NCBI RefSeq assembly: GCF_011009555.1
Contig: NZ_QXHD01000001.1
Coordinates: forward strand, 78,451 to 124,238
Direction of reading: 5' to 3'
DNA from: Adonisia turfae CCMR0081
GTDB lineage: Bacteria > Cyanobacteriota > Cyanobacteriia > Phormidesmidales > Phormidesmidaceae
Length of the DNA: 45,788 bases
Shown: positions 19,861-36,755 of the stretch, piece by piece
Layout of the letters: each line of letters opens with the position of its first letter
How positions within the stretch are numbered: the stretch's first letter is position 1
Translations under genes and position numbers: made by a program
Notes under the pieces: model-generated
What the model was told of the DNA's origin: nothing
What the model saw: only the letters and a program-made list of their open reading frames with translations
The model's database searches: none

Positions 19861-19894
19861 ACTCTCAAACCCTTGTAGTCATAGGATTCAACTT

Positions 19895-20817: not shown

Positions 20818-20831
20818 GAGCGCGTTAATCT

Positions 20832-21329: not shown

Positions 21330-21678
21330 GCGCTTTGATGGCGCTATGGCGTTTAGACGGTTTACCGATACCATCAAAGCCAATGGTGGTGACGATGAAG
21401 CGTATAGACAAGCCGTTATTACTGAAACGGAAGAGCTGTTTGATTGTGAAGTGCGTGAGTTGTATCGGCTTACTGGAGGTAAACCGAATAAACGCCATAC
21501 TCTTCCCCATGAGGTTCAGCAAGCTTATATGGTAAATGAAACCCTATCAGCGTATGAGCTAGAGCGTATGGAAGGGACCATCGGTGGTGAATCTCAGCAG
21601 GAGGTGAACGACCAGATTGATGCTGTGGTTAGGGAGCAGTCTAAGCAGACGCGGAAGTGGTTGCCTTGGGCGAAATGA
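21226..21678 (+). CDS. Cytosolic protein, unknown
   Basis: 150 residues from the ATG at 21226, chosen over the in-frame TTG at 21187 because a purine-rich GAGAGAGAAAAA precedes it. The protein is charged and helical (RKRFDGAMAFRRFTDTIKAN, EAYRQAVITETEELFDCEV) and ends in basic WLPWAK. It overlaps the previous gene by about 100 bp in another frame. No family is recognised. A rho-independent terminator follows at 21762. Confidence 0.6.
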   Translation: MIFSDFWKNEKERLEPSDSQLDLLGNSKELLPQRKRFDGAMAFRRFTDTIKANGGDDEAYRQAVITETEELFDCEVRELYRLTGGKPNKRHTLPHEVQQAYMVNETLSAYELERMEGTIGGESQQEVNDQIDAVVREQSKQTRKWLPWAK

Positions 21679-21761
21679 TGGGCGTTGCGATCTCACAACC
21701 GCTCTAACGAAGCACTGCAACCTCGTTGTTACCCTAGTTCTAATAAAATAGTACTAACTTG

Positions 21762-21785
21762 GCCCTGGCATTGCTGGGGCTTTTT
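21762..21785 (+). terminator. Rho-independent terminator
   Basis: GCCCTGGC-ATT-GCTGGGGC forms an 8-bp stem (two G-U pairs) followed by TTTTT. It closes the plus-strand group ending at 21678. A near copy with the same leader (GTACTAACTTG) is at 30524-30548. Confidence 0.85.
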
Positions 21786-21858
21786 CGTGGGTTGCCGATC
21801 TCAATTCAAAATAGCTCCTATTGTCGATATCGTTTGACGTTTATTATTTTGGGCATTC

Positions 21859-22661: not shown

Positions 22662-22692
22662 GGCCTAGCCCTGGCAACTGCTAGGCCTTTTT
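22662..22692 (+). terminator. Rho-independent terminator after PRTase gene
   Basis: GGCCTAGC and GCTAGGCC form a perfect 8-bp stem with a 10-nt loop followed by TTTTT. Confidence 0.9.
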
Positions 22693-22929
22693 GCTGGGCT
22701 GCTGCGCTCTAAAGCGCAGTGATTGTAGCATGGGCCTTTGAATTGGGTTGCATTCTCGTTACAACGTTGTATGTGCATCGTCTATAGGCCTGCGCATTGC
22801 CAACAGAATTACCACCACCACAGCCGCTCAAGGTTACCCGTCATCGCGCTGTTCAAGCCAAGCTGCCAGCCTCCGTTATCAAGGCGTTGGAACATTGCGA
22901 TCTCTATCGTACTCCGTCTGTCAGTGCGC

Positions 22930-22964
22930 TTGACATGAGTCAGCGGTAGCAATGCAAAGCATTG
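22930..22964 (+). promoter_or_regulatory. Conserved promoter-like box and hairpin in repeat A
   Basis: TTGACA at 22930 matches a -35 box; 17 bp later TGCAAA is a weak -10. A CAATGC-AAA-GCATTG hairpin overlaps it. The stretch is identical in copy 2 (31183 onward), so it is under constraint or recently copied. Confidence 0.45.
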
Positions 22965-22998
22965 GGTGAATGGATCGCGTTGTGTTGGTTTTAGCGTT

Positions 22999-23301
22999 AT
23001 GCGTTCTGTTCCATTTGAGTTTGTGTCTGGTTTAGCCGCTGAGTTTGGCGCGGTCGAGTGCTGCTGGCGCGAGTCTGAGCGGTCCTTTACGGGCTACGTG
23101 GCCGAGTGCTGGTTTGCGCAGCTGCCGTCAGCGTTTGCTACCAAGTGGGCTGCGGTGGTTGGTTACCAGGTGCGGGTGCGTTGTGTGTCGGCTGGGCCTG
23201 CGCGGTTTGCGGTGTCGGTGCCGGTGGTGGTGCCTGAGGGGCAGGTGTTGCTACGCGGTGGTCAGCGTGGGGGGCGAGTGCGGGTGCGGTTGGTGCGTTA
23301 G
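22999..23301 (+). CDS. Repeat-A small protein, copy 1
   Basis: 100 residues from the ATG at 22999 (a GTG at 22966 is in frame but lies within the conserved leader). Starts MRSVPFEFVSGLAAEFGAVE, contains CCWRES and CWF (three Cys), and ends in an Arg/Val-rich strand-forming tail (GGRVRVRLVR). No signal peptide. Family unknown; the beta-rich, basic C-terminus could bind nucleic acid. The paralogue at 31252 is nearly identical for the first ~38 residues and ~55-60 percent similar afterwards. Confidence 0.65.
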   Translation: MRSVPFEFVSGLAAEFGAVECCWRESERSFTGYVAECWFAQLPSAFATKWAAVVGYQVRVRCVSAGPARFAVSVPVVVPEGQVLLRGGQRGGRVRVRLVR

Positions 23302-23391
23302 TTGGGTTGGGGTTGTGGTCGTGGTTGTAAATTGAGAGCGCAACCCCAATTACCCCAGCTTCTAGCAGTGATTGTGGAAGTCAGGGTATTC

Positions 23392-23748
23392 TTAATCGCC
23401 TATTTTCAATTCTTGTTCTGAGTCAAGACTAGAAGACTTTGGATGAGTGGTTTTATCGGTGCCCCATCGCTTACGTAACTCTTGTACATCCTCTAGGGAG
23501 AAGCTACCAGCCTTAGGCTGCTCAGCTTCCGGATCATCTACTTGTTGGATTAGATCTTTGAGTTCACAGTTAAGGATGGCACATAATTTCAAAAATTTAA
23601 TGATTTGTTCTACCCCTGATTTGCCACTTTCCCAGTTCTGAATAGTGTTTGTCGTAACTCCCACCAAGACGGCAAGTTGGGCTTGTGTCAAACCTGTTAA
23701 CTCTCTCAGGTCTGCAATCCTTGAAACAGCTTTAGTAGGGTGCGACAT
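23392..23748 (-). CDS. XRE-family HTH transcriptional regulator
   Basis: 118 residues. A typical Cro/CI helix-turn-helix spans ~13-65: IADLRELTGLTQAQLAVLVG, VTTNTIQNWESGKS, ending with a LCAILNCELKDLI helix. The acidic, Ser-rich C-terminal tail is unassigned. It lies 123 bp downstream of the PIN-like gene on the same strand and may regulate it, as in toxin/antitoxin pairs. Confidence 0.88.
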   Translation of the reverse strand: MSHPTKAVSRIADLRELTGLTQAQLAVLVGVTTNTIQNWESGKSGVEQIIKFLKLCAILNCELKDLIQQVDDPEAEQPKAGSFSLEDVQELRKRWGTDKTTHPKSSSLDSEQELKIGD

Positions 23749-23871
23749 ACTGCTGACTCCATTGAATGTCCATGCACGGGTAATTAGATTACAGTTATCA
23801 TGATAAGCGCACCCAAAAAAATAGGTGTGTTTATTGAGTATAGATATTGATGCTTAAGCTGGCAAGCTTTA

Positions 23872-24489
23872 TTAGTTACGCCAGTTCCAATATTCGTCCA
23901 TCTCACCCTGCTGTAAATACTTGTAATAGGTATTGGGATGAATGCCAGCAGGTACTACCAAGGTGCAACTACTAAAGGGGATAAAACTCTTCTCGGCTTG
24001 TGGTTGTGTTAACGAGACAACAGAATCTAGATAGTTTTCTTGTGAATTAGGAAGCTGATAAAGTTCCTCAAAATAATGAGCTGCAAACTGTTGGATGGTT
24101 AAGATTGGTCCATCAAAGTTTATATATTTGCTGGGGGAATTGCTGATAATAATGTCAATTCCATCTTTCTGGGCGCAAAATGATTCAATTGCTCCTTCAA
24201 AGCTCTGATAATCAGAAGCTATCGCTTGATGAATACAATCAGAAGTAACTTGAATTACTCGATCAAATATAGTGTGAGCTTGTGTGACTAGTTCAGCACC
24301 GTCTGTATTGTCATTCAGCTTGGCTCCCAAGAAACGTATGTTCCGGAGAAACACATCTGAAACACATCGTTCTACCTGAGAAAAATTTCCGGGCTGCAAC
24401 AAGCTGTGAATAGAGCCAATACCGACATTGTCTGCTGGATAAAGGAAAAATTCTAAGCCCAGTTCTGAGTCAATCAACACTTTCATCAT
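23872..24489 (-). CDS. PIN-domain-like protein (tentative)
   Basis: 205 residues; starts MMKVLIDSELGLEFFL, the first strand/helix of a PIN fold with its Asp. The region DGIDIIISNSPSKYINFDGP and ILTIQQFAAHYFEEL (~115-150) resembles the end of PIN domains (strand, variable Asp, then the 'xVLTPEEF' helix). About 60 further residues follow. Only some acidic active-site residues are obvious, so nuclease activity is uncertain. It lies upstream of an XRE regulator on the same strand. A possible toxin; the assignment rests on pattern alone. Confidence 0.45.
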   Translation of the reverse strand: MMKVLIDSELGLEFFLYPADNVGIGSIHSLLQPGNFSQVERCVSDVFLRNIRFLGAKLNDNTDGAELVTQAHTIFDRVIQVTSDCIHQAIASDYQSFEGAIESFCAQKDGIDIIISNSPSKYINFDGPILTIQQFAAHYFEELYQLPNSQENYLDSVVSLTQPQAEKSFIPFSSCTLVVPAGIHPNTYYKYLQQGEMDEYWNWRN

Positions 24490-24642
24490 TTCTACTTTCT
24501 CTCACACCAAAGCGTTTATTAAGACTCATCCCATATCCACTGATCTTAGCACTGCAATCGAAAAACGACATCAAATATAAAACCAATGCTCAACACCTAA
24601 TTTTTTTGGTATTATTATTAAACGTAAGCGTTTTGGTGATTT

Positions 24643-24819
24643 ATGAAAATATCACTCCTTGGAGCTGTTTTGGTTTTTCTAGTTACGTTCGCTATCGTTG
24701 GAACATATTGCTGGAAAGCGCTGAGTCTAGATGACGGAAGTATCCGATTTCGATTGGCAGGCCCTGCTGGTATTGGTTTGGAAGCAGAGCTTGATAAGCG
24801 TACTTCTGATGAGGATTAA
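24643..24819 (+). CDS. Small single-pass membrane protein
   Basis: A 58-residue frame read directly from the sequence. It starts MKIS, has one membrane helix (LLGAVLVFLVTFAIVGTYCW) and a short polar tail (LDDGSIRFRLAGPAGIGLE) ending in TSDED. It occupies the same place in module 1 as the membrane gene at 32448 in module 2. Function is unknown. Confidence 0.55.
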   Translation: MKISLLGAVLVFLVTFAIVGTYCWKALSLDDGSIRFRLAGPAGIGLEAELDKRTSDED

Positions 24820-24876
24820 ATGTGTGCAGAGTTCAATGTCAGCAGCTTGATTCAGTTAGCTCAACTCCCAACCCCA

Positions 24877-24907
24877 CAAAAAAGCCCCCACCATATCGGC
24901 AGGAGCT
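24877..24907 (-). terminator. Rho-independent terminator (minus strand) of repeat-B gene
   Basis: On the minus strand AGCTCCTGCC-GATAT-GGTGGGGGCT forms a 10-bp stem with G-U pairs followed by six T. Conserved in copy 2. Confidence 0.85.
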
Positions 24908-25031
24908 CTGGAGAGTGTGTTGTAGGGAAGAGTCTGAGTGGGAAAAGGGTGCCCTGAAAATGAAGCTTTCACAGATTACGGAGTCTGCACCGGGCACCCA
25001 ATCTTGGGTACCGCAACAGCTCAGTAATCTG

Positions 25032-25436
25032 TTAGCGGATGGACTTGGTACGAGCATCCAGTGCATCTAGGCGAGTCTCTTGGATGTTGTCAACGGCTTT
25101 AGTTTGGTTATTGAGGTGCTCAAGACGTAGCTTGTGAACGCTGTTCTTAGTGCGAGCATCCAACGCATCTAGGCGAGCTTCTTGAATGTTGTCGATAGCC
25201 TTAGTGCGAGCGTCTAGGGCGTCTAGGCGAGCAGCTTGGATATCTTCGATAGCCTTGGTTTGGTTGTTGAGGTGCTCAAGGCGTAGTTTGTGGACAGTGT
25301 TCTTAGTGCGGGCGTCTAGCGCTTCGAGGCGAGCGGACTGAATGTTGAAGCTAGCAGGCTCAGCGGCGGATGCGATGGGTGCGATCGCAGCGGAGGCAAC
25401 GAGAACGGTTAAGGCGGAAAGCAGTGTGCGTTTCAT
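25032..25436 (-). CDS. Exported alpha-helical repeat protein (repeat B, copy 1)
   Basis: 134 residues from the ATG at 25436, selected because AAGGAG lies 9 nt upstream; an upstream ATG would add seven residues and swallow that site. Signal peptide LLSALTVLVASAAIAPIASA, then alternating ~15-18-residue helical units of two types: RLDALDARTKAIDNIQE and LRLEHLNNQTKAIEDIQ. Perfect periodicity, no Cys, no Pro after the signal: a rod-like coiled coil in the periplasm or outside. The paralogue at 33015 is almost identical. Function is unknown. Confidence 0.85.
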   Translation of the reverse strand: MKRTLLSALTVLVASAAIAPIASAAEPASFNIQSARLEALDARTKNTVHKLRLEHLNNQTKAIEDIQAARLDALDARTKAIDNIQEARLDALDARTKNSVHKLRLEHLNNQTKAVDNIQETRLDALDARTKSIR

Positions 25437-25655
25437 GGTTAAAGCTCCTTGGGGCATCAGTGGTTGACTTCATTGATTACAAGAATGCCGGGGGTAGCTG
25501 AACGCTATGTGACGGGTAACTGAAAGTTGCTTAAAGGGTTTCTGAGATTGGCTGAGGAATGTTGGTGATGGGGGTCACAAGGTGAATTACGGGTTGCGAT
25601 CTCAACTCCATTTATTTCGTTGATCCAGTGAATAGATGCAAGATAAAAAACGAAT

Positions 25656-25699
25656 AAGTGTTCAGCTCTTAGTGAAGACCTTCACTAAGAGCTGAACAC
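25656..25699 (-). terminator. Strong hairpin terminator downstream of the lipase gene
   Basis: A 20-bp perfect stem (AGTGTTCAGCTCTTAGTGAA and its complement) with a 4-nt loop. On the minus strand it is followed by TTATTCGTTTTTT, so it ends the lipase transcript. Confidence 0.88.
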
Positions 25700-25746
25700 T
25701 AGTTAAGGCAAATCAGCGTACATAGGGATTCACCTGTAGTCGGTGT

Positions 25747-26889
25747 TTATTGGTTTAAGGCATTCCGATAGGTGCTACCCAGATTGTGGTTACCGGCCAC
25801 CGTACCCGTTTGCTTTGTAAAGCCTACAGGTACGCCAACATGCTGATAAGTCATATCAGTTAAGCCACCAGTGAATTCTTCAATGGTTTCACGTGCTAGG
25901 CCGACAAACTTCTGGAGGGGGCTATTATCTTTGAGCATCTCATCATCCAAAATTAAGGTAGTTGGCAGCGGCACAGCCTGGATTAAGTCTTCGCTATTGA
26001 TAATTCGGTAAGCCTCTTGAAGTTGTGCGATGGATTGGGAAAAGGCTTCATCACCAACACGGGGGCTAGCAAAGGTATAAAGAATGGGATTTATGCCTAC
26101 TTTCTTGACAAGGTGAGCGGCTGCGAGGATTGCTAGTCCGGCTCCTAAGCTATGACCAGTAATAAATATGCGTGTTTTTTCGAGTTTGTCCTTGGGATAT
26201 TGATTGAAATAGGTCTCAATGGTTGTGCGAATTGTTTCCCGGTCACCTTTACCCCTCTTTTTGTTATAGATGCGATAAAAACCATTCCGCACTTGGCCAT
26301 ATTGGTCATTTTCTAGGAATGTCAAAGGGCCAACTCGAAAGTTATTAAACCATTCTGCATTTTCACGTGTTCCACGGAAGACAAGAAATAAGCCATGTGT
26401 TCCGCCTTCTAGTTCTCGTTCTGCAATAAATCCGAAAACCTGATCGCGCATGCCCAATCTAGGGAGAGCCCATCTCTCATCAGCACCTTTGTTCATTCGT
26501 TCGGATAATTTTTCCCAAACCTTCAGAACATCAGTTTGCAAGACATCGTTAACGTCTTCGAAAAAGTCCTCACCAGATGTTTGAGAGTACCAAAAGTTAG
26601 TAACTCGCTTATATGCAAGTCTTGTATCATCAGAGGCTTGATCCCAGGAGGCATTAATCCTTCCATAGTCCTCATCTCGATTATCTCGATATTTATCTAA
26701 ATTGACTAATGCTGATGACCCTAAAATGGTTTCCTCGTCAGGTGCCCCCAGTTTCTTTCCTTCTGCTCCATGCTTATCCCAAATCTCATATTCGTCGTAA
26801 GCAACCATAATGAGATTTGCTAATTCGATGGCACGTTTGCAGTCGAAGTTCGAGTCAGCAGGAGGATGCACCTTTGAAAAATCTAACAT
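25747..26889 (-). CDS. Class 3 lipase-family alpha/beta hydrolase
   Basis: 380 residues from the ATG giving MLDFSKVHPP; an in-frame upstream ATG would add 12 implausible residues. The nucleophile elbow ITGHSLGAGLAILAAAHL is at ~242-260 with Ser ~246. GLFLVFRGTRE supplies the oxyanion strand, INSEDLIQAVPLP the probable Asp region, and YQHVGV or NHNLG the His. These are hallmarks of fungal-type lipase_3. There is no signal peptide, so export would need another route or act on host membranes. First cargo gene after repeat B copy 1, upstream of a strong terminator. Substrate presumably phospholipid or acylglycerol. Confidence 0.9.
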   Translation of the reverse strand: MLDFSKVHPPADSNFDCKRAIELANLIMVAYDEYEIWDKHGAEGKKLGAPDEETILGSSALVNLDKYRDNRDEDYGRINASWDQASDDTRLAYKRVTNFWYSQTSGEDFFEDVNDVLQTDVLKVWEKLSERMNKGADERWALPRLGMRDQVFGFIAERELEGGTHGLFLVFRGTRENAEWFNNFRVGPLTFLENDQYGQVRNGFYRIYNKKRGKGDRETIRTTIETYFNQYPKDKLEKTRIFITGHSLGAGLAILAAAHLVKKVGINPILYTFASPRVGDEAFSQSIAQLQEAYRIINSEDLIQAVPLPTTLILDDEMLKDNSPLQKFVGLARETIEEFTGGLTDMTYQHVGVPVGFTKQTGTVAGNHNLGSTYRNALNQ

Positions 26890-27147
26890 GATGTTTAACC
26901 TTATTATGTTTGTAAGAAAGCACATCTCGTTTTTGTCTGAACAAAGAAAAAATTTGTTTGAATCAATTCCAATGTGATCTTTGTTCTTCTTGCGTGTGTT
27001 CTTGCTCTCGCATAATTGCCATACGATTTCGTCTCATTAGGTGAGATCTGATTTTGTAGCTACCTCAATCTCAGTTTCATATTTGAAATTTTCTGATTTT
27101 TTTAGTGACTTGAGAACGATACCCACCAGAACTACAGTATTATTTGA

Positions 27148-27708
27148 TCACTCTGTACTACTAGTTTGATCATCAATAGGGGCTACGTCGTCATCCTTAG
27201 CTCTAACTGTTAAAGTCCTGGAAATAATGTTAGGAACAAACTTTTCAGAAAATCCTGCTACAAAGCTCCAGACGAGTAGTTTAGCTAAATCTTTATTTGT
27301 ATCAGGGTTAACAGATTTTACATAGGCAATCGCGTTTTCGTAATCCTCACCTGCAGCTCGAAATTTTGGAAACAAGTCTCCAGTAAGAATCTCAGCAGTA
27401 AAAATCAGGGTCAATAGTATTGCAAAAATGATAGCTACTAGGGATTTCCAGATGATATAAGACATCAGAGAAAAGACATCTTCTTCGGATGTTTCCTGAG
27501 CATTTCTGAATGGCTGATTAACGAGTGATCCCGCAAGTGCAGCAGCGATAACAAAGGTTGCTTGTGGATATCTCTGGCCGTCAACTTCATTCACCATGGC
27601 AGGTGAAGCCAGAAATGCAATCATACTTACAATAAGCGATGTAAGAAAGAATAGAAGTAAAAACCTTGGAGCATTTCTCCTAAGAAGCTTTGTTAATTGA
27701 ATTCTCAT
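27148..27708 (-). CDS. Membrane protein with conserved 'WSFVAGFSE' segment
   Basis: 186 residues. Four hydrophobic segments: FLLLFFLTSLIVSMIAFLA, ATFVIAAALAGSLVN, LVAIIFAILLTLIFTAEIL and LAKLLVWSFVAGFSEKFVP. The last resembles a segment seen in cyanobacterial membrane proteins of unknown function. Basic N-terminus, acidic C-terminus. It lies between the lipase and the muramidase genes on the same strand. A pore or holin-like role is possible from context only. Confidence 0.7.
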   Translation of the reverse strand: MRIQLTKLLRRNAPRFLLLFFLTSLIVSMIAFLASPAMVNEVDGQRYPQATFVIAAALAGSLVNQPFRNAQETSEEDVFSLMSYIIWKSLVAIIFAILLTLIFTAEILTGDLFPKFRAAGEDYENAIAYVKSVNPDTNKDLAKLLVWSFVAGFSEKFVPNIISRTLTVRAKDDDVAPIDDQTSSTE

Positions 27709-27979
27709 TGATTTATCTTATCTGAACCTAAGATTAATGTAGGTTTCACTTGTCACTTGATATAGCTATCGCGCTAGTCTGTCTGAACCTACTGAAATTC
27801 TGGGTCGTTAACTTCTTTATGCATAGTGACTCTCTCCTAATTTTGTTCAACGTTCTCCTCAAATTGGTTGCCTTAATTTATTAAACGCGATCAACCAATA
27901 GCTGCTCCTTATTGGAAAAGGATTTCAGAACTTTCAAGCTATGCGACACTAAGCAAAAGTTTCTCCAGAGCTAGACCGA

Positions 27980-29488
27980 TTAACCTAATCTAGCTTTCCA
28001 TTTCTTATATGCGTTGGCTAGTTTTCTGTGATATCCGAGCCTTTCATATGCTCTTCCGTTATATCCTCTGGAAAAGTCTCTCCATGCATCAGGGTTAATG
28101 GATGGTCTCTGGAGAGCGGGTATGAGTCTATTAGAACGGATATAGTTGAGCATATGGTTCATTTGTTGGGATTCACCCTGATGAGCTTCTATCACAAGCT
28201 GTTGAACACTGTCACACCCTGCCGCTTTAAAGTTAAAGCCCATAACCTGACCTAGTCCCCAAGAAGCAGATCTCAATGCTGGAGTAGGATCCCATTTCAT
28301 TGCATCTAATAGACGTTCCCATTCAGCACTACCACCTCTGTAATACCTACTCGTGTAAGACGGAGTTGCTAGATCTGGGCGATGTCTACTTACAGGCTCT
28401 GGCGTTTCCCTGTAGAAAATATGAGCTTCGAACAGAATTTTTGGTCTTGCTGGTGGAGGTTCATGAAGTAAAAAGCCGCTGTTACTTGCTTCGACTTCTA
28501 AAACAGCACGTAGGACAGCCACTTCAATTCCAAAGTCTGATGCTGCTTTTTCGATGTCTTTGTCCGAGACGGCTTCTTGCACAAAATCTTTGGGAATCGT
28601 GACTATAAACTGCCGATTAGCATACTGAATGGGTGGATATACATACTTGAATTCTGAAATAGGAATTCCTGTAGTAGGGGCTTGGGCTCGTTGATACTCT
28701 TTCTCCAGCCAAAGACTCATTTCTTCGCGGGTTGATAAATCGGCTTCCCCCGTTACTTGTCCTGAAAAAGTTCTTGTCACCCTGATCACGTTTCCATTCT
28801 GATGACGGTGGTCTCCCATCGACGCCTGTTGAAATAGCCTCAGGGCTGTTCGTGTCGTATCCCCAAACCATCCATCTGTTTCACCGGCAAGAAACCCTAG
28901 AGCTGTTAGGTGAGTTTGGAGCTCTACTACATATTTGCCAGGTACATTGGCCTGTTTCCCAAAACGACTAGCCCCTGCAGTATCGATATCGCCGTATTTA
29001 AGATTAAGGCGATTGTCATGCAGATAGGAATCAAATAAAGGAGGCAGAGGCGGTGGATTATCTTCTCCATCAGGGATAGGTATTACAGGTGGAGAGACTA
29101 CAGGAGGAGGAGCATTGGGCGTTGTATCTATACTATCTCCTGAAACAGAGTCTATACTGTCTTCATCGAGAATATGACCAACATTGCCTAAAGCTGAGAG
29201 ACTAAGCGGCACTGCAAACTTTCCCAGTGAGACGTGCTGAGGTAGGCCTTTCTTGAAATGTACATAAAATGTCAGCCTTGGTTTTGGAGGTAAAAAACCC
29301 GTAAAATCTACGCCAAATCCCTCAAAGCGATAGTCTGGATTACCTTTTATATTTCCATTACTCAAGTCAAACGCTGGAGGAAGACTTTTTTCTGAGGCCT
29401 TAGAATTGATTGAGTTTACTGCTTTAGTTGAACCTGCTAGTACAGATGTCAAAAATATTATGCCGTTCATATTGAGATCTCTTTTCAA
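27980..29488 (-). CDS. Peptidoglycan-binding N-acetylmuramidase-family protein
   Basis: 502 residues. N-terminal ~120 residues unassigned, then a Pro-rich linker (SPPVIPIPDGEDNPPPLPP). A PG_binding_1 repeat (VVELQTHLTALGFLAGETDG, WFGDTTRTALRLFQ) is at ~190-235. The C-terminal ~190 residues match the DUF3380 endolysin type: VLRAVLEVEASNSGF with the catalytic Glu, RPKILFEAHIFYRET, SASWGLGQVMGFN and YNGRAYERLGYHRKLANAY. Such enzymes cleave the glycan strand of peptidoglycan. A second in-frame ATG (MNGIIFL) is an alternative start. It completes a lipase/membrane protein/muramidase set able in principle to attack all envelope layers. Confidence 0.88.
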   Translation of the reverse strand: MKRDLNMNGIIFLTSVLAGSTKAVNSINSKASEKSLPPAFDLSNGNIKGNPDYRFEGFGVDFTGFLPPKPRLTFYVHFKKGLPQHVSLGKFAVPLSLSALGNVGHILDEDSIDSVSGDSIDTTPNAPPPVVSPPVIPIPDGEDNPPPLPPLFDSYLHDNRLNLKYGDIDTAGASRFGKQANVPGKYVVELQTHLTALGFLAGETDGWFGDTTRTALRLFQQASMGDHRHQNGNVIRVTRTFSGQVTGEADLSTREEMSLWLEKEYQRAQAPTTGIPISEFKYVYPPIQYANRQFIVTIPKDFVQEAVSDKDIEKAASDFGIEVAVLRAVLEVEASNSGFLLHEPPPARPKILFEAHIFYRETPEPVSRHRPDLATPSYTSRYYRGGSAEWERLLDAMKWDPTPALRSASWGLGQVMGFNFKAAGCDSVQQLVIEAHQGESQQMNHMLNYIRSNRLIPALQRPSINPDAWRDFSRGYNGRAYERLGYHRKLANAYKKWKARLG

Positions 29489-29741
29489 TCAATAAAAACA
29501 TTGAGCAATGGGGAAATGAGCCTACCTCTCCATCCCATCTACTAATACTATTCAAACTCTCTCTTCAATTAAGCAGATTGACATACGAAAATACGCCAAT
29601 CATTAGTTGCAGAAAAGAGTGTAGTGAATATTGAAAGTGGATATCTGATATGTAGATTTTGTAGTATTTCCGGGAGAATCAACTACATCTTTAGTATATT
29701 TTCCAAATTGCTGGGTCATACTTTTGAATTCCTCCCGTTTC

Positions 29742-29885
29742 AACACCTAAATACCCAAAACCTCACCCCGTGGAGTACCACCGGCTGCTACCTCATTCAG
29801 ATCTAACCGCTTCAAGAAAAGCCGTTGTGCCCGTGTACTCACACCGGCATGTCTCAGTTTCGCTCGTCCCTCGCTAGTGGCCACC
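29742..29885. repeat. Repeat C, copy 1
   Basis: Non-coding stretch similar to 34252-34396: shared blocks include CGTGGA-TACCACCG, GTTGTGCCC-TGTACTCACA and TCAGTTTCGCTCGT. It closes module 1. Nothing coding is convincing between 29489 and 30020. Confidence 0.7.
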
Positions 29886-30020
29886 CTCCGCCCTCTACGC
29901 CACAGGCTACCACAGCGCATCTATGGCCTGACGTACACTTGAGATCGCATCGACAAAGGCTATCAATGCTTATTGTGGCTATGACGATAATCCAGCATAT
30001 GGAACCCTATAGCCTTTCTT

Positions 30021-30347
30021 CTATTCAAGCAGCCCCAATTCTTCCGCATTCTCAATATCGACTTCAATGAAACAGTAGTACATATCGGCTTCAGAATCCG
30101 CATAGCTCAATAGCAAATCAATTTGCCGTCTGAGGTCGTCTAGGTCGCTATGGGTGAACCTCAGCAGGTAATCATTGCCACCAAGGTCTTGTTCTCGTAG
30201 GCCGTAGTTCTGAAGGCAGTACTGTTCGATGGTTTGCCTCACCTGCTTTGCGTAACGAGCAACAAACTTACTATGGCCTTGTACATGAAGGTAGAGAGCC
30301 ACTTCAGTGACGATCAAAGGCTGGGTATCGTTGGCTGTGTCGTCCAT
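30021..30347 (-). CDS. Small acidic protein, unknown
   Basis: 108 residues, acidic, with alternating strand/helix character (VTEVALYLHVQGHSKFVARY, DLDDLRRQIDLLLSYADSEA, MYYCFIEVDIENAEELG). No membrane segment or known motif. It lies alone between module 1 and repeat A copy 2. A regulator or immunity-like protein is possible; nothing proves it. Confidence 0.55.
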   Translation of the reverse strand: MDDTANDTQPLIVTEVALYLHVQGHSKFVARYAKQVRQTIEQYCLQNYGLREQDLGGNDYLLRFTHSDLDDLRRQIDLLLSYADSEADMYYCFIEVDIENAEELGLLE

Positions 30348-30523
30348 CCAGGGAAGTGCCTATATCTTTTGGGTCAATACGGTTTAAGGATATCGAGGTT
30401 TGGCAGCGGTGGGGGGCGATGGCGAAGCCGCTCCAGCAAAGCATCGCAACCTGGCAGCTAGGTTACCTACTTAGCTGCATCGCCCCGAGTAATGTTTTAG
30501 GCTGGATGAATAGTACTAACTTG

Positions 30524-30548
30524 GCCCTGGCCGTCGCTGGGGCTTTTT
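30524..30548 (+). terminator. Rho-independent terminator, near copy of 21762-21785
   Basis: GCCCTGGC-CGTC-GCTGGGGC followed by TTTTT, with the same AGTACTAACTTG leader as the one at 21762. No plus-strand gene is evident immediately upstream, so it may be carried as part of a copied segment. Confidence 0.75.
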
Positions 30549-30897
30549 GCTGGGCCGCTGCGCCCTAATGCGCAGTGATTGTAGCATGGGCCTTTGAATT
30601 GGGTTGCGATCGCAAATTTGGTCTCCCAATCATCTTTTCTAAAGCTCCCCACATTTTAAGTGTTCAACGCTAGAATCGCTTTAAGTTATGCGGGTATGGC
30701 AGGTGCCATCCTAAAAGCTTGGGTATAAAGATTCTACGGGAAGGTTTCAGTGACTGCTTAACAGTACGCAATGGGTTCCTGTCTTTTGTCAGTATGAAGG
30801 AATGGAATTGGTCCTTGTTCTTCGTCAACATTAAGGAGGCGCTTATGAACGCATCTGTTAATCATTTGATTTTTGGTATGTGTGGGTTGGCATTACT

Positions 30898-30997
30898 GCA
30901 GGGAAGGATTACCCAGGCGTACTGAGAGCAGTGCTGAAGTTGGAACATGAGTCTTCCAAGAGCTAATGCCAAGAGGGTTCGATTCCCTCTACCTGCA
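30898..30997 (+). tRNA. tRNA-like sequence, probably a remnant
   Basis: GAGGG-TTCGATT-CCCTC is a perfect T-arm with the canonical 7-nt loop. It is followed by TACCTGC-A, which pairs at 6 of 7 positions with GCAGGGA at 30898. The part between is ~100 nt overall, too long, with no convincing D-arm and only an irregular TTGGAA/TTCCAA anticodon-like hairpin. CTA, not CCA, follows the discriminator. A degraded tRNA or a tRNA 3' end carried as an attachment site fits better than an active tRNA. Confidence 0.35.
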
Positions 30998-31251
30998 CTA
31001 TTTGATCAAAGGGTGTTTGTATTGCTGGTATTCCCATAGATCTACTCCCACCCAAAGGAATTACCCCCACCACAGCTGCCCAATTTTACCCGTCCAGGCA
31101 GCGCGTCAAGCCAAGCTGCCATCCTCCGTTATCAAGGCGTTGGAACGTTGAGATCGCAATCGTACTCCGTCTGTCAGTGCGCTTGACATGAGTCAGCGGT
31201 AGCAATGCAAAGCATTGGGTGAATGGATCGCGTTGCGTTGGTTTTAGCGTT

Positions 31252-31566
31252 ATGCGTTCTGTTCCATTTGAGTTTGTGTCTGGTTTAGCGGCTGAGTTTG
31301 GCGCGGTCGAGTGCTGCTGGCGCGAGTCTGAGCGCTCGTTTACTGGCTACGTGGCCGAGTGCTGGTTTGGCTTTTTGCCTAGCTTTTTCGCTCAGCGTTG
31401 GGCGGCGGTGGTTGGTTACTCGGTCCTGGTGCGGTCAGTGTCCAGTGGGCCTGGCCGCTTCATGGTTTCGGTGCCGGTCACGGTGCCTCAGGGGTCCATT
31501 CGGTTGTCTGGCGGCCAGCGGGGTGGGCGTGTTCGGGTGGTTGTTCATCCGCCGTCTAGTTACTAG
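31252..31566 (+). CDS. Repeat-A small protein, copy 2
   Basis: 104 residues from the ATG at 31252, the position equivalent to 22999. N-terminal ~38 residues nearly identical to copy 1. The rest is homologous but diverged (FGFLPSFFAQRWAAVVGYSV, ending GGQRGGRVRVVVHPPSSY). It has its own terminator at 31573. The old 3' tail of a copy 1-type gene remains downstream, so the 3' half seems to have been replaced by recombination. Confidence 0.65.
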   Translation: MRSVPFEFVSGLAAEFGAVECCWRESERSFTGYVAECWFGFLPSFFAQRWAAVVGYSVLVRSVSSGPGRFMVSVPVTVPQGSIRLSGGQRGGRVRVVVHPPSSY

Positions 31567-31572
31567 CGGTGT

Positions 31573-31593
31573 GGGGCTTCGGCCCCTTTTTTT
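31573..31593 (+). terminator. Rho-independent terminator of repeat-A gene copy 2
   Basis: GGGGC-TTCG-GCCCC, a 5-bp GC stem with a stable UUCG tetraloop, followed by seven T. Confidence 0.92.
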
Positions 31594-31612
31594 GAGGTCT
31601 GAATTTATAAGA

Positions 31613-31665
31613 CAGGTGTTGCTACGGGGGGCAGCTTGCGGGGGCGGTTGGTGCGTTAGTTGGGG
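31613..31665 (+). pseudogene. Residual 3' tail of a repeat-A gene
   Basis: CAGGTGTTGCTACG and GGTTGGTGCGTTAGTTGGG match the last ~60 bp of the copy 1 gene (23242-23306) with a short internal deletion. It lies after the terminator of copy 2 and has no start. Confidence 0.7.
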
Positions 31666-31669
31666 AGTA

Positions 31670-32119
31670 CTATTTCTGATTCTTACTTTTAAGAGTCTGT
31701 CGAGTTTTCTCAAGTGCAGCACTATCAATCCATTCCTCCATGGGTCTGAGTCTGTATTTTGTCGTGCTACCTTGTCGTTTTTCTTCGCTAATCAATCCTG
31801 CTTCGCACAGAAATCTTAAAGAGTATCTGACTTTTCGAGGGCTCATTTTACAGACAGTGGCCATGTCGCTCACTTTTGAAAAACAGACACGGTGCCGTCC
31901 TGCTCTGCGAGCTACGTGACTATAAACTCTAAATTCATAGGGATCAAGTCCATAATCATCTAGCTCCCTGTGCAGGTTCATAGGAGAACGATACTTATTC
32001 TCCGTAGTCTTAGCTTCTGATGAAGCCTGATTTTCTTTGAGAATATCTTCCATTTTTCTTGGTCTAATAAGCCTTTTGCCTACTATGTTTCTTCGATCAC
32101 CCTGGTAATTTCTCCTCAC
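31670..32119 (-). CDS. Winged-helix DNA-binding protein (HTH_36/DnaD-like)
   Basis: 149 residues. Between ~55 and 125 is a winged helix: LDPYEFRVYSHVARRAG, then FSKVSDMATVCKMSPRKVRY as the recognition part, then FLCEAGLISEEKRQGS and the wing TTKYRLRP. This pattern is common in plasmid replication and phage regulatory proteins. Start may be at the internal MEDILKENQ. It takes the place in module 2 that the XRE and PIN-like genes take in module 1. Confidence 0.75.
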   Translation of the reverse strand: MRRNYQGDRRNIVGKRLIRPRKMEDILKENQASSEAKTTENKYRSPMNLHRELDDYGLDPYEFRVYSHVARRAGRHRVCFSKVSDMATVCKMSPRKVRYSLRFLCEAGLISEEKRQGSTTKYRLRPMEEWIDSAALEKTRQTLKSKNQK

Positions 32120-32327
32120 TTAAAAGCTTAATTATCTTATTTGAGCTTTACATTAAGGGGATACATTAGGTAATTTACATGATTCCTGAAACTCTTTTGT
32201 ATAAATGCTTTTGCTTGTGATTAATCCTGTATTTAAACTGCACACAGTGCATTCCCCTTGGCACTAGAAGACCACCAATACTAGAATAGCAAACATATCA
32301 GGATCAGGCATACAGGGGAGCAAAAAA
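32120..32327. other. Intergenic region, no gene seen
   Basis: AT-rich region upstream of the winged-helix gene; likely its promoter. No frame or repeat of note until the hairpin at 32328. Confidence 0.5.
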
Positions 32328-32359
32328 AGCAGCGCTGATGCTCCAACACCAGCGCTGCT
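32322..32359 (-). terminator. Orphan minus-strand terminator
   Basis: AGCAGCGCTG pairs perfectly with CAGCGCTGCT around a 12-nt loop. On the minus strand seven T follow. No minus-strand gene ends here, so a short transcript starting between 32360 and ~32860 may end at it. Confidence 0.65.
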
Positions 32360-32447
32360 TCTATGGCAACCAGTTTCCCTCGATTAGAAACTAGGTTGCA
32401 CCTGATATTTGGCCCACAGTTATCGATGAACAAATGGACACTGAATT

Positions 32448-32819
32448 ATGACTATTCTAACAGAACCACCTTCTTCAGAGGCTCAGCCCAGCTCCTTGAT
32501 TGGGCGCAAGATCGTTTCTACTGTTTTGGGGATTGGTATCACTCTTGGATCAGGACTATATTTAGGCATTACACAAGGTCTATCGACGAGCATTAATAAC
32601 CAAGCACGGACTCAACCTAAGGTTAGTCGAGCTGATTATGAAAGAATCAAACTTGACATGACACAGGCCGAAGTTGAAGCAATCTTAAATCCTGGTATTG
32701 AAGTTCGGCGTTCGAAAGATTCCAATTGGCTTATATGGGAGAATTCTGACCAATCAAAAATTGAGGCAGAGTTCCATGATGGAGTTCTTGTTTACAAGGA
32801 GCAGTCGGGCTTGAAATAA
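32448..32819 (+). CDS. Membrane-anchored small protein with BamE/SmpA-like domain
   Basis: 123 residues. Polar N-terminus, one membrane helix (IVSTVLGIGITLGSGLYLGI, ~22-41), then an extracytoplasmic domain: ADYERIKLDMTQAEVEAIL, a strand SNWLIWEN, and KIEAEFHDGVLVYKEQSG. The 'I..GMT..EV..iLG' helix and the 'v.F.dG.v' strand are the BamE/SmpA pattern, also used by peptidoglycan-hydrolase inhibitors. It is the module 2 counterpart of the membrane gene at 24643. Confidence 0.7.
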   Translation: MTILTEPPSSEAQPSSLIGRKIVSTVLGIGITLGSGLYLGITQGLSTSINNQARTQPKVSRADYERIKLDMTQAEVEAILNPGIEVRRSKDSNWLIWENSDQSKIEAEFHDGVLVYKEQSGLK

Positions 32820-32862
32820 AGACACTCACCTTAGGATCATGTATTGTTCAGTTGAAACCCTA

Positions 32863-32893
32863 CAAAAAAGCCCCCACCATATTGGCAGAGGCT
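32863..32893 (-). terminator. Rho-independent terminator (minus strand) of repeat-B gene copy 2
   Basis: AGCCTCTGCCAATATGGTGG read on the minus strand folds as in copy 1 and is followed by a T-run. Confidence 0.8.
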
Positions 32894-33014
32894 TAGAGTG
32901 TGTTTAGGGAGAGTCTGAGTGGGAAAAGGGTGCCCTGGGAATGAAGCATTTCACAGATTAACGGAGTCTGCACCGGGCACCCAAGCTTGGGTACCGCAAC
33001 AGCTCAGCAATCTG

Positions 33015-33419
33015 TTAGCGGATTGACTTAGTACGAGCATCCAATGCGTCCAAACGAGCGGCTTGAATATCCTCAATGGCTTTAGTTTGGTTATTGAGGT
33101 GCTCCAGACGTAGCTTGTGAACGCTGTTCTTAGTGCGAGCATCGAGGGCGTCTAAGCGAGCCGCTTGAATGTTGTCGACAGCTTTAGTGCGGGCGTCTAG
33201 AGCATCTAAGCGAGTGGCTTGGATATCTTCGATGGCCTTGGTTTGGTTATTGAGGTGCTCAAGGCGTAGTTTGTGGACGGAATTCTTAGTACGAGCGTCA
33301 AGCGCTTCGAGGCGAGCGGATTGAATATTGAAGCTAGCGGGCTCAGCGGCGGATGCGATGGGTGCAATGGCAGCGGAAGCAACGAGAACAGTTAAAGCGG
33401 AAAGAAGTGTGCGTTTCAT
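33015..33419 (-). CDS. Exported alpha-helical repeat protein (repeat B, copy 2)
   Basis: 134 residues from the ATG at 33419 with AAGGAG upstream, as in copy 1. The signal peptide is identical. In the helical repeats only a handful of residues differ (for example AARLDALDARTK where copy 1 has EARLDALDARTK). Synonymous differences outnumber amino-acid changes, suggesting that the protein is maintained by selection. Predicted periplasmic rod. Confidence 0.85.
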   Translation of the reverse strand: MKRTLLSALTVLVASAAIAPIASAAEPASFNIQSARLEALDARTKNSVHKLRLEHLNNQTKAIEDIQATRLDALDARTKAVDNIQAARLDALDARTKNSVHKLRLEHLNNQTKAIEDIQAARLDALDARTKSIR

Positions 33420-33583
33420 GGTTAAAGCTCCTTGGGGCATCAGTGATTGACTTCATTGATTACAAGAATGCGGGAGCTACCTGAATGCTATCTGACGGGT
33501 AACTGAGGGTTGCTTAAGGGGTTTCTGAATTTGGCTGAGTAAGTTGGGTGATGAGGGTCACAGGGGTTGTTAATCTAAACAGT

Positions 33584-34165
33584 TTAGTATCTCTCAAGTA
33601 TGGCGGAGATTCTAGAGCAATGTGAGCAAAAATCTCCAATTATGAACTCTACAATCGAATCGGGTTGGTGATTAGGCTTGTTTACACTAATAACAAAAAT
33701 GTGTTCTCCTTTATTACCAACTCTAAAATTCGACAAATCAGAAATTCGATGCTTGATCTTATTAAGAAGTCTTTCCATCTTTAATGGTTGACCCTTGAAA
33801 GGAAGTGAGCCATTTCCTGGACCGACGGTAACGAGTGCCTCTTGCTGAGCTCGTGTAACTGATGAAGAAGCTAGACCACAGAACTTTCGTAGCTCTTGAG
33901 CCAAATCTGAACCCTTAAAATTGCCTATAGTCTTTGCATCATCTCTAGCGCGTAGAATGTCATTTACAATGTGATCAAGATGTACCATCGCTTCCATGCT
34001 CGCATCTGAGGCTTGATCTAATTCTGGAGGATTTCTTTGCCAAGCATCGAGGAAAACGGCAGAGGAATCCTCCAGTTGCTGAATAGACGTACGAATTGCT
34101 GTCAAACGATTTGTAATCTTTCCTGAAAGGGCAGAATTACGTGAAAGAAAAATTTTTTTACCCAT
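33584..34165 (-). CDS. Unknown protein, sole cargo of module 2
   Basis: 193 residues, no signal peptide or membrane helix. N-terminal half helical (ITNRLTAIRTSIQQLEDSSA, MEAMVHLDHIVNDILRARDD); the middle has PGNGSLPFKGQPLKMERLLN; near the end GDFCSHCSRISA has a CxxC. It occupies the position held by the lipase/membrane/muramidase genes in module 1. No family is recognised. Confidence 0.65.
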   Translation of the reverse strand: MGKKIFLSRNSALSGKITNRLTAIRTSIQQLEDSSAVFLDAWQRNPPELDQASDASMEAMVHLDHIVNDILRARDDAKTIGNFKGSDLAQELRKFCGLASSSVTRAQQEALVTVGPGNGSLPFKGQPLKMERLLNKIKHRISDLSNFRVGNKGEHIFVISVNKPNHQPDSIVEFIIGDFCSHCSRISAILERY

Positions 34166-34251
34166 ATCTTCGCTACTTTACCTAATTCCTTATAGCTACT
34201 ACTTAACTTCTCAGTAAACTACTCATAGCTATGAGATACATCTACCTTGAC

Positions 34252-34396
34252 GCAACACCAACTTTCAAAGCCGCATTCCGTGGATTACCACCGAATACTA
34301 CTCAATCTACATTTAGCACGTTAGGAAAAAAGCTGTTGTGCCCTTGTACTCACATCGGCACGTTTCAGTTTCGCTCGTTCCTCACTAGTGGGCCAC
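34252..34396. repeat. Repeat C, copy 2
   Basis: Partner of 29742-29885, closing module 2. Confidence 0.7.
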
Positions 34397-34809
34397 AGCC
34401 AAGACATTGAGTGGTTGCCCGCTTGTTTGTTTGTGCGTCCGCTCCGCTCCCCGCACTATTGGTGTCGTTGGGCTCTTTTTTGTTTGCCGCCCTGCGACCC
34501 TTTACGCCACCGCCGAATAGGCTACCGCACCGCGCCCATTGATCAAGGGCCGCTGCGCTCTCCGCATTCGCTACGCCCTTGACAACGGGTCCCCACGCTG
34601 GTGCGGTTCCATGTGGCTGCGTGGCGTGCGGTGCTCGGGCGGGTCTTGGCTGTGGCCGTTGGTAGGGCTTCTCCTAAAAAACAATTTGGTGCCCTGTGAT
34701 AAACTTGCTGACCCTATGGGGAGGGGCACCCACGAGCATACAATCGAGTGGGGCGGAGACCCGCGTAGGGTCAGCGAAGCGATTCTACGTGGGTCTCTGC
34801 CGCTAGTGG
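34397..34809. other. GC-rich non-coding region with a long inverted repeat
   Basis: No convincing gene. At 34753-34803 GCGGAGACCCGCGTAG pairs with CTACGTGGGTCTCTGCCGC around a 16-nt loop (imperfect, ~14 pairs). It could be an RNA hairpin, a protein site or part of an origin. Confidence 0.45.
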
Positions 34810-35100
34810 CTACCAGGGTAGATAGTTTCCAGCTGTTAGACTCCCATGGCTCTCCGGTCTGGGCACCCACCCCAGCAGCTCCACCGCGCACCCACCGACC
34901 AGCAACGCCGCATACTGCCCCCGATCGCTAGCTACTGCCTTACACCGCCATCCCTGTGCCCGTAGCCACGTAGCCAGCCCATAGGGCAGCGGTGCAGGTA
35001 CGGCGAGCACTACGCCGCAGGCGACACCGTCGCGGTGTGGGCGTGCCCATGGGCACGCGTTGAGGATGTCAGGTTTGGGCGTTAGTTCTAGTTGTTGCAT
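34810..35100 (-). CDS. Possible small protein, unknown
   Basis: 96 residues with normal amino-acid balance: MQQLELTPKPDILNACPW, a compact Ala/Val/Leu-rich core with four Cys (GVACGVVLAVPAPLPYGLAT, GWRCKAV, GGCAVELLGW). GC-rich. It stands alone, so evidence is limited to length and composition. Confidence 0.4.
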   Translation of the reverse strand: MQQLELTPKPDILNACPWARPHRDGVACGVVLAVPAPLPYGLATWLRAQGWRCKAVASDRGQYAALLVGGCAVELLGWVPRPESHGSLTAGNYLPW

Positions 35101-35493
35101 TGCTTCTGTTGTTGTTGGTCAGCCTATGAGGGGAACCGTTTAAGATTGTTTCCCCTCTTCTTCAGGTTGCTGTTCTCTCCCAGTGGCTTTTCTATAGCGT
35201 GGGTCGTGTCCTGTTTCCCTGGGCTGTGTGCGCCCCTAGCTGTGGCCTTTGGCTAGGGTGGGTTTTCAGTTCGCCGTTGCGTCTGCTGCCGTTGTTTGGT
35301 TACTGCCTGCTAGCAAGGCTCTGGCCGTTTCTCCGGTCGGTTTCCTGGTGTCTTCTGTGCTTAGTTATCGCTGCTCCGTCTTTGTAGGGTTTCCGCCCTA
35401 GCTCGCCGGTTTCTGTTTAGGTCCGCCTTATGGCTGCGTTTCTGTTTAGCGCCCCGAGTCTCACGCGATGTTCTAAGTCCCCTGCGTTAATAC
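35101..35493. other. Intergenic region, doubtful short frames only
   Basis: A Leu/Cys/Trp-rich 62-codon frame on the plus strand (35199-35387) exists, but codon make-up and composition do not look like a gene. No other feature until the palindrome at 35494. Confidence 0.4.
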
Positions 35494-35529
35494 TATTGTA
35501 CCATTTTTAGCGCTAAAAATGGTACAATA
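35494..35529. promoter_or_regulatory. Perfect 36-bp palindrome
   Basis: TATTGTACCATTTTTAGC is followed directly by its exact reverse complement. There is no spacer and no mismatch. It starts 213 bp before the gene at 35707. Candidate operator of a dimeric or tetrameric repressor, a resolution site or an origin element; as RNA the T-run inside the stem makes it a poor terminator. Confidence 0.8.
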
Positions 35530-35637
35530 AAAGAGTTAAAGGAGAGTTTTAGAGATGTCTGTGATTATTGTATATCAATGGTTTTAGATGTTTCTTGAGT
35601 TTGATAAAAACTCTCTTTGGGTGAGTTGTGTATAGGT

Positions 35638-35667
35638 GGAATGATCTGGTTGCACCCAGATCATTCC
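35638..35667. promoter_or_regulatory. Perfect 12-bp inverted repeat in the leader of 35707
   Basis: GGAATGATCTGG and CCAGATCATTCC flank TTGCAC. It ends 39 bp before the ATG at 35707. Likely an operator or a leader hairpin controlling that gene. Confidence 0.65.
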
Positions 35668-35706
35668 GTGCACATCTTGCCTACCAATCTACGAAAAGGA
35701 AACAAG

Positions 35707-36057
35707 ATGCACGAGTTAGATTTTAGTACCTGCCAGGAACGGCGGGAAAAACAGGATGTGGCAGAAGCTGAAGAATGGGGCTTTGCCATGCTGGAGCTGG
35801 CGGAGCTGGTGAAGCGCTGGGGAAAGCAAGCCATCGCAAACGAACTAGCTAAGTTACCAGACACCTCACCGATGCAGCATCAGCCTCTATGCGCTCAGTG
35901 CGTCAACTGGCGGCCACCGCGACCTATTCCACTATCCAATGGCACCACCCATATGAGCTTGGGGTTATGTGAGCTACGAGCGGCTAGCGACCTGGCGCAG
36001 CTGCCTCAACACTACGCGGGTAAGTGCAGTTTTTACGAACCTGATACGCCGTTTTAG
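35707..36057 (+). CDS. Cys-containing small protein, unknown (plasmid control region)
   Basis: 116 residues from the ATG at 35707, chosen because AAAGGA lies just upstream. The N-terminal half is helical and acidic (REKQDVAEAEEWGFAMLELA). The C-terminal half carries CAQC, LCEL and GKCSFY, four Cys arranged like a small zinc site. No family is recognised. Two perfect palindromes precede it, suggesting tight control. The gene at 36117 follows after 59 bp. Confidence 0.65.
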   Translation: MHELDFSTCQERREKQDVAEAEEWGFAMLELAELVKRWGKQAIANELAKLPDTSPMQHQPLCAQCVNWRPPRPIPLSNGTTHMSLGLCELRAASDLAQLPQHYAGKCSFYEPDTPF

Positions 36058-36116
36058 AAGCCTTTGCACCTACGCGGGAGTGGTGCCCCGCTGTTCGCCA
36101 CATCAACTACAAGACT

Positions 36117-36635: not shown

Positions 36636-36755
36636 GAATCGTTTGCGGCCTTGACAATGGCTCAGGGCTGCGCCATCAGATACCCTTACCCTTCGCTCTC
36701 TTCTCTCTTCTCCTGCAAGCATGAATGGTGAAGTCAACCGACCAATCCCCCACTA

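Follow-up and report, generated by a model that had tools for sequence, protein, structure and literature searches.

The 45,788-base stretch of Adonisia turfae CCMR0081 analyzed here (hereafter the window; bases 78451-124238 of contig C1) carries two parallel modules, in which the same repeated parts, termed A, B, and C, enclose different genes, and the question is how unrelated genes came to lie between conserved parts. The two modules are copies of a plasmid frame with the order A0-A-slot 1-B-slot 2-C, in which A0 is a short piece upstream of A, and we consider it likely that homologous recombination inside A and B, the repeated genes, exchanges the unrelated genes in the slots. C1 (125,377 bases), one of the 17 contigs of the 8.66-Mb genome, is likely a plasmid because a ParA-type protein and a tyrosine recombinase are encoded on it, and the largest contig, C11 (7.7 Mb), was taken as the chromosome. 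A sequence-only reading of the window had proposed a fixed frame with exchangeable cargo, and this central idea holds in a corrected form, namely as a plasmid frame with two exchange slots.

The comparison of the window with itself yielded four pairs of repeats, which we designate by their positions in modules 1 and 2: B (24870-25582 and 32856-33565; 88.5% identity over 715 columns, E = 0.0), A with its upstream region (22800-23286 and 31052-31539; 83.6% over 494, E = 8.5e-144), A0 (22668-22751 and 30524-30607; 89.3% over 84, E = 6.6e-25), and C (29756-29884 and 34266-34396; 78.8% over 132, E = 4.2e-21). The four pairs follow each other in one order and orientation in both modules, as had been claimed for A, B, and C, and a chance origin by short matches is thus excluded. 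The repeat named A is real, while the starts assigned to it before fall in A0, and the A gene proper spans approximately 22999-23298 and 31252-31566. The spacing between A0 and the A upstream region is 444 bases in module 2 (30608-31051) versus 48 bases in module 1. Between the two B genes, 11, 2, and 35 changes were counted at the first, second, and third codon positions, respectively, corresponding to 33 synonymous and 9 non-synonymous codons; the counts for the A genes were 16, 16, and 32, and the third-position excess is less clear than in B. The parts of the frame and the genes between them are listed below, where LPA.4 is a plasmid of Leptolyngbya PCC 7375 and L with a number denotes a locus in the comparison.

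19092-21791, plus strand: left backbone block, plasmid genes of unknown function; adjoins A0 directly in L056
21859-22620, plus strand: gene for a phosphoribosyltransferase-domain protein, extra between the left block and A0 (Pfam Pribosyltran, 4.5e-07)
22668-22751, plus strand: A0 of module 1, a terminator-like hairpin (by eye) and the start of the A upstream region
22800-22998, plus strand: conserved A upstream region of module 1
22999-23298, plus strand: A gene of module 1, 100 amino acids (aa)
23311-24869: slot 1 of module 1, with an HTH_3 protein (minus), a 205-aa protein (minus), and a 58-aa putative membrane protein (plus); without a match in LPA.4
24870-25582, minus strand: B unit of module 1, with a terminator-like end, 3' untranslated region (3'UTR), gene, and promoter side with a CRP-type site
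25032-25436, minus strand: B gene of module 1, 134-aa predicted exported coiled-coil protein
25583-29743, minus strand: slot 2 of module 1, with a class 3 lipase, a membrane-like protein, and an N-acetylmuramidase
29744-29884, plus strand: C of module 1, a conserved block with no clear gene
30021-30347, minus strand: 108-aa protein gene between the modules, also in the orthologous place in LPA.4
30524-30607, plus strand: A0 of module 2
31052-31251, plus strand: A upstream region of module 2
31252-31566, plus strand: A gene of module 2
31605-32855: slot 1 of module 2, with an HTH_36 protein (minus) and a 123-aa protein (plus)
32856-33565, minus strand: B unit of module 2 (gene at 33015-33419)
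33566-34265, minus strand: slot 2 of module 2, with a 193-aa protein (PHROGs phrog_29562, function unknown)
34266-34396, plus strand: C of module 2
34397-36757: right backbone block (postC), including a conserved 96-aa gene (34810-35100, minus)

Is this arrangement found elsewhere? After the loci of the relatives were turned into the orientation of the window, five loci outside the window (L037, L041, L045, L047, and L057) showed an A part, B, and then C or postC ordered and oriented as in the window; these are the further copies with other cargo that the sequence-only reading had advised searching for. Partial frames occur in L028, L038, L049, L050, L056, L060, and L065. Two cases do not fit: A and B lie on one strand in L064, and C/postC of L045 is inverted relative to the next B copy, L053. 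Across the 16 loci compared for backbone blocks, a conserved plasmid backbone continues the frame on both sides, with blocks matching window 19092-21791 and 34400-36757 in whole or in part. The left block is matched in the same place, wholly or partly, in L045 (81%), L056 (74%), L041, L047, L057, and L038, and it is joined to A0 in L056 without the phosphoribosyltransferase-domain gene; postC is matched in L037 (88-94%) and, in whole or in part, in L041, L045, L047, L050, and L060. Among 192 genomes including that of the window strain (E ≤ 0.001, weak matches counted), B was detected in 20 and A in 17, with both in 7, only A in 10, and only B in 13. The parts therefore also occur alone; it is nevertheless false that they never recur in this order, as B lies downstream of A in the canonical orientation within ~2.5 kb for 9 of the 16 A copies in four genomes of the genus (one A copy at a contig edge was left out).

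The most direct comparison is with LPA.4, in which the overlapping loci L057 and L037 constitute an orthologous double module. By blastn (E ≤ 1e-4), C of module 1 together with the 108-aa gene is 92% identical between LPA.4 and the window, postC is 88-90% identical, and the right block is 94% identical over 5 kb. The A region matches at 95% in module 1 and 91% in module 2 (upstream part only), and B matches at 87% and 85% in the gene part and at 83% and 76% in the 3'UTR. No match was found in any of the four slots at the same threshold, and in slot 2 of module 1 the similarity is limited to the first 20 bases after B. LPA.4 thus keeps parts of the frame and the right flank while all four slots differ, as the proposal of a fixed frame with exchanged, non-homologous cargo had it. 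Slot 1 of LPA.4 encodes a pentapeptide protein and an RTX-repeat protein, and the slot 2 genes include those for an S24 peptidase, a group II intron reverse transcriptase, and a transposase. Separately, transposase genes (IS3-like by eye; L037, reversed, 6204-7333) split the 108-aa gene in LPA.4.

Such differences might be ascribed to ordinary plasmid descent, in which an old backbone is inherited and genes come and go in its gaps through transposition, deletion, and illegitimate events, A, B, and C having no particular part in this. The synteny of the backbone reaches well past the frame, transposases and a group II intron are found in the slots of LPA.4 and in its 108-aa gene, most of the cargo is not common between frames, and A is broken in LPA.4, all of which agree with this explanation. 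It does not predict, however, the four-way combinations of A haplotypes or the reassortment of flanks around B on different replicons, both described below, and we regard it as unlikely.

Among 14 A copies, two haplotypes can be distinguished on either side of the gene. On the 5' side, haplotype I comprises the window copies W1 and W2, L057, and L045 (93-96% alike) and haplotype II comprises L056, L047, and L038 (89-93% alike), with 78-80% between I and II; on the 3' side, haplotype a comprises W1, L056, and L101 (88-95% alike) and haplotype b comprises W2, L045, L057, and L038 (86-91% alike). All four combinations exist, namely I+a in W1, I+b in W2, L045, and L057, II+a in L056, and II+b in L038, and either recombination or repeated convergent change is needed to account for them. 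L047 has a type II 5' side with the 3' side unplaced, L101 has a type a 3' side with the 5' side unplaced, and six copies form other groups. Single-breakpoint fits to six A triplets were equaled in none of 20000 shuffles each, and the breaks are placed at ~22991-23117.

The B copies tell a similar story in their surroundings. The set of 39 B loci, which excludes the short or cut loci L054, L058, L059, L063, L066, and L068 and the partial second copies in L046, L048, and L062, contains 12 pairs sharing the sequence directly to the left of B and 20 sharing that directly to the right, of which only 2 share both. Left-sharing pairs are more alike at the B 3' end (0 of 2000 permutations) and right-sharing pairs at the B 5' end (53 of 2000), while right-sharing pairs are not more alike at the 3' end (697 of 2000); with 14 right-sharing and 10 left-sharing pairs usable, 89 of 5000 label permutations reached the combined contrast of the two groups. 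The left flank of LPA3_053 recurs at two B copies on the chromosome of the window strain, and its right flank recurs at LPA3_045, LPA4_047, and HI_049b, whose left flanks differ. In LPA3_045 and LPA4_047, the B 5' ends are 92% identical and the 3' ends 72%, and the two loci have their slot 2 content in common and differ in slot 1. As side observations on the B flanks, the left flanks of two chromosomal and three plasmid B loci (L033, L032, L039, L042, and L053) are 87-96% alike, and those of L033 and L053 contain a UmuD/UmuC-like gene pair (by eye). Many loci also have, on the promoter side of B, a dispersed repeat of ~0.7-1 kb in which no clear gene is evident (L047, reversed, 11262-12143; L069, L026, L051, L045, and L053).

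Could the slots instead be cassettes exchanged site-specifically by a dedicated enzyme? The candidate site is TTGCGATCGCAA, a 12-base palindrome with a HIP1 core, and the candidate enzyme is a 182-aa XerD-like tyrosine recombinase encoded near ParA (window 16544-17092), of which the XerD/XerC match is far below the cut-offs and the DNA is 87% identical in LPA.4. With up to 2 mismatches, the palindrome lies 12-17 bases beyond the CRP-type site of B in 10 of 33 loci, where the intergenic density would predict ~1, and it precedes 6 of the 8 C copies at a distance of 7-20 bases; the five exact copies in L045 are distributed over the edges of B and C and the spaces between cargo genes. Similarity ends within 30 bases of a palindrome in 47 of 570 intergenic cases versus 24.0 ± 4.7 in shifted controls (largest of 300: 37), an approximately twofold excess. 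More than 90% of the similarity ends lie away from the palindrome, however, both C copies of the window are devoid of it, and the clearest breakpoints fall inside A. In addition, HIP1-type palindromes are common in cyanobacteria, and the fixed offset from the CRP-type site perhaps reflects mere shared ancestry. As most similarity ends lie elsewhere, we keep the palindrome only as a rival explanation, and a quite unlikely one: it cannot be the main agent of exchange and may make a contribution.

Exchange through the homology of A and B is, judging from the mosaics, the most likely explanation, and a link to the chromosome is seen in one case. The chromosome of the window strain carries two direct B copies that are 22.2 kb apart and 83% identical, whereas the counterpart in PCC 7375 has a single B, with left and right flanks 95% and 97% identical to the outer flanks of the pair. 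The intervening 21.4 kb contains remnants of plasmid frames: it matches the window at 2428-2746 (91%), 8244-8521 (86%), and 22666-22909 (A0 and the A upstream region; 80%) and has left-block pieces of other frames, while most of it matched nothing in the loci compared. A test of the single PCC 7375 B as a hybrid, flank included, gave agreement at 106 of 140 sites (0 of 10000 shuffles). Integration of a circular molecule at B would leave such a structure, and so would the loss of that molecule from PCC 7375.

Several observations weigh against exchange within A and B. At the chromosomal site, the hybrid signal inside the B unit is weak (56 of 86 sites, 918 of 20000 shuffles), and there are further insertions or deletions of 102 bases and ~3.5 kb in PCC 7375 and of ~0.75 kb in the window strain; an identity of only 83% between the two bounding B copies would make the event, if it took place at all, an old one, and it may have gone in either direction. 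At another site, Ch4523, PCC 7375 is without most of B and ~80 bases of the B 3' end remain, which fits a deletion rather than a clean crossover. Left-sharing pairs are more alike also at the far (5') end of B (18 of 2000 permutations). With respect to A, 8 of the 14 copies match no full haplotype combination, and the sixth triplet (L047) fits poorly on the right, where no more than 64% of the sites match the second parent. The loci share ancestry, and the counts of shared order are thus not independent. Insertion sequence (IS) elements and the group II intron lie in or beside the LPA.4 slots, and other processes therefore change slots as well. Finally, both A genes are broken in LPA.4, by an internal deletion in module 1 and a cut in the upstream region in module 2, and only the right end is left of C in module 2, most of which is gone. 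The frame itself also erodes; the broken A and C concern its constancy, not the mechanism. A and B had been named as the constant parts; the B gene is kept in LPA.4 at 85-87%, and A is not always intact.

With exchange by homology as the preferred explanation, the agent would be ordinary RecA-type recombination, circular plasmids may integrate and excise at B, and slot exchange would be frequent enough to matter to the host. The B family is spread over plasmid and chromosome, with nine copies in the window strain (three on C1 and six on C11), and each copy would therefore present ~700 bases of homology to land on, with additional sites in A, C, and the backbone. More tentatively, the dispersed and presumably CRP-controlled B family, helped by A, might possibly serve as a set of portable standard joints, at which cargo blocks are swapped between plasmids, or a whole plasmid is integrated or released, by recombination inside B, which stays whole. 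The resulting model can be tested: a conserved gene family would have a second role, supplying the homology by which plasmid and chromosome trade cargo.

What kind of gene is B? Its protein has a stretch resembling a signal peptide at the N-terminus and, after it, a charged pattern that is repeated, and we predict from the amino acid sequence an exported coiled-coil protein. Its relatives, in a search that scored the 7994 candidates sharing most words, are mainly of Leptolyngbya and Leptothoe, and no match was found in the plasmid collection or the viral contigs (the phage collection was not searched for B). The conserved unit extends from the terminator-like hairpin to just past a CRP-type palindrome. 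GTGA-N6-TCAC, sought within 200 bases upstream, lies 124-139 bases from the B start codon in 33 of the 36 copies with a recognizable start (3 of the 39 loci have none); the half-sites are exact because the search required them, the sites have 17 different spacers, and the background is 0.074 per kb. A consensus of TGTGAN6TCACA has been given for cyanobacterial CRP sites (PMC2633013), and B is accordingly a predicted member of the CRP regulon. We also considered a transposon and do not favor it: the ends of the unit coincide with the hairpin and the CRP-type site, and the sharp limits of conservation therefore have an ordinary reason. No terminal inverted repeat was noticed in the boundary alignment, of which no formal scan was made.

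The A protein showed no convincing family in Pfam, PHROGs, or NCBIfam. A0 looks, in the alignment, like the terminator of the upstream gene and the beginning of the A promoter region. In total, 172 relatives of the A protein were detected, and the named organisms among the best 120 of them are all cyanobacterial; no record of the phage collection matched, and one record of the plasmid collection did. The predicted fold (mean pLDDT, the predicted local distance difference test score, of 83) has no clear structural match. The helix residues VSGLAAEFG prompted the idea of a LAGLIDADG homing endonuclease, and Foldseek against the PDB ranked such enzymes first, none of them significantly; LAGLIDADG enzymes were no better than unrelated folds by VIA-align, profile searches of the PDB and Pfam gave weak, unrelated matches only, and we do not make this claim. 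As separate observations, an IMG/VR viral contig of 18.9 kb (L131) encodes an A relative with 62% identity, an A copy lies between two C copies inverted relative to it on contig C10 of the window strain (L035, 9443-10574), and a similar inverted A-C pair is located inside postC of L047.

The cargo was surveyed as 47 open reading frames (ORFs) of at least 75 aa in 12 whole or partial frames, among which the LE_050 locus is without A and HI_056, HI_038, and Ch5894 are without C; the ORF caller dropped the 149-aa HTH_36 gene of module 2, which is overlapped by a longer ORF. The genes reported between B and C, namely lipase, membrane protein, and muramidase in module 1 and one unknown protein in module 2, were confirmed (Lipase_3, a membrane-like protein without a Pfam family above the cut-off, and N-acetylmuramidase in module 1). 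The stretch between A and B does consist of DNA-binding gene(s) followed by a small membrane gene in these two modules, but other frames hold other genes there, making it an exchange slot as well. That cargo lies on the minus strand is not general, as 32 of the 47 ORFs are on the plus strand and 15 on the minus strand. Within this set, no slot protein of the window matched one of LPA.4 at E ≤ 1e-4, and four pairs matched between frames at the same threshold: a slot 2 protein common to L045 and L047 (61%, nuclease-like by eye), and three pairs linking pentapeptide proteins, one of which connects slot 1 of LPA.4 with slot 2 of L050 (42%). The annotated cargo is mixed (lipase, muramidase, RTX, pentapeptide, HicB, transposase, intron reverse transcriptase, and kinase), and many ORFs have no family.

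Cargo of this kind bears on the possibility that B and the cargo form an exported antibacterial or surface system, with the membrane protein as immunity and A or the helix-turn-helix proteins as regulators. The lipase and muramidase of module 1, the predicted export of B with a CRP-type site in 33 of 36 copies, and the exported look of some other cargo (RTX repeats, Tectonin, and Peptidase_C11) would suit such a system. The transposase, group II intron reverse transcriptase, HicB antitoxin, histidine kinase, and S24 peptidase encoded elsewhere would not, nor would the shared slot 2 with a different slot 1 in L045 and L047 or the occurrence of A and B apart, and we regard a functional module as highly improbable.

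How does the frame compare with known systems of exchange? The p-dif modules of Acinetobacter plasmids are exchangeable plasmid gene modules bounded by XerC/XerD sites. In contrast, the shared units of the frame are whole transcription units of ~500-700 bases; no XerC/XerD site was noticed in the boundary alignments, in which no dedicated dif search was made, and HIP1-type sites are seen in these alignments and in the palindrome scan. In integrons, a stable platform holds variable gene cassettes. The frame resembles them as a stable platform with variable cargo and differs in that its slots hold multi-gene segments on either strand; no integron integrase was found in the window, where the integron model (TIGR02249), with a cut-off of 265, gives the recombinase at 16544-17092 a score of 38.7 bits. 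Replacement flexible genomic islands are exchanged by homologous recombination between clonal frames, and the gene sets that replace one another in them have similar functions, as a rule those of exposed structures (Lopez-Perez et al., 2014, PMC4033161). Compared with that account, the window and LPA.4 share the feature of different genes in the same place between conserved flanks, and the A mosaics and the association of B ends with flank sharing correspond to a recombination signal in the conserved boundaries. Unlike in those islands, the frame cargo is of mixed function, and we do not class the frame as a replacement island for this reason; moreover, the frame is mainly on plasmids and has two adjacent slots, and its dispersed paralogous A and B copies appear to act as joints, including joints to the chromosome. 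That genes are exchanged between conserved ends is known from other systems; what is new is a dispersed gene family as the joint and the link between plasmid and chromosome. No description of the frame was found in the open-access papers searched, within limited search terms. Cyanobacterial plasmids carry many unknown genes, and the turnover of their content is little described in the literature searched; the recurrent two-slot frame offers a ready-made place to seek accessory genes.

No match at the gathering level was found in an Rfam scan of the window, and no transfer RNA or transfer-messenger RNA (tmRNA) was found in it by ARAGORN. The insert separating A0 from A in module 2 contains a tmRNA-like remnant (30882-31000; Rfam RF00023, 119 bases only, 18.6 bits against a cut-off of 47, E = 1.3e-05 in a search of 461 bases), and the sole other genome match of this insert is ~50 bases at 77%. 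Elsewhere in the window, paralogous genes with repeated segments, pentapeptide-like by eye, lie at 40304-44818 and 108-1085, and an 844-aa protein encoded at 3112-5646 resembles by eye a NACHT-type nucleoside triphosphatase with an N-terminal helix-turn-helix.

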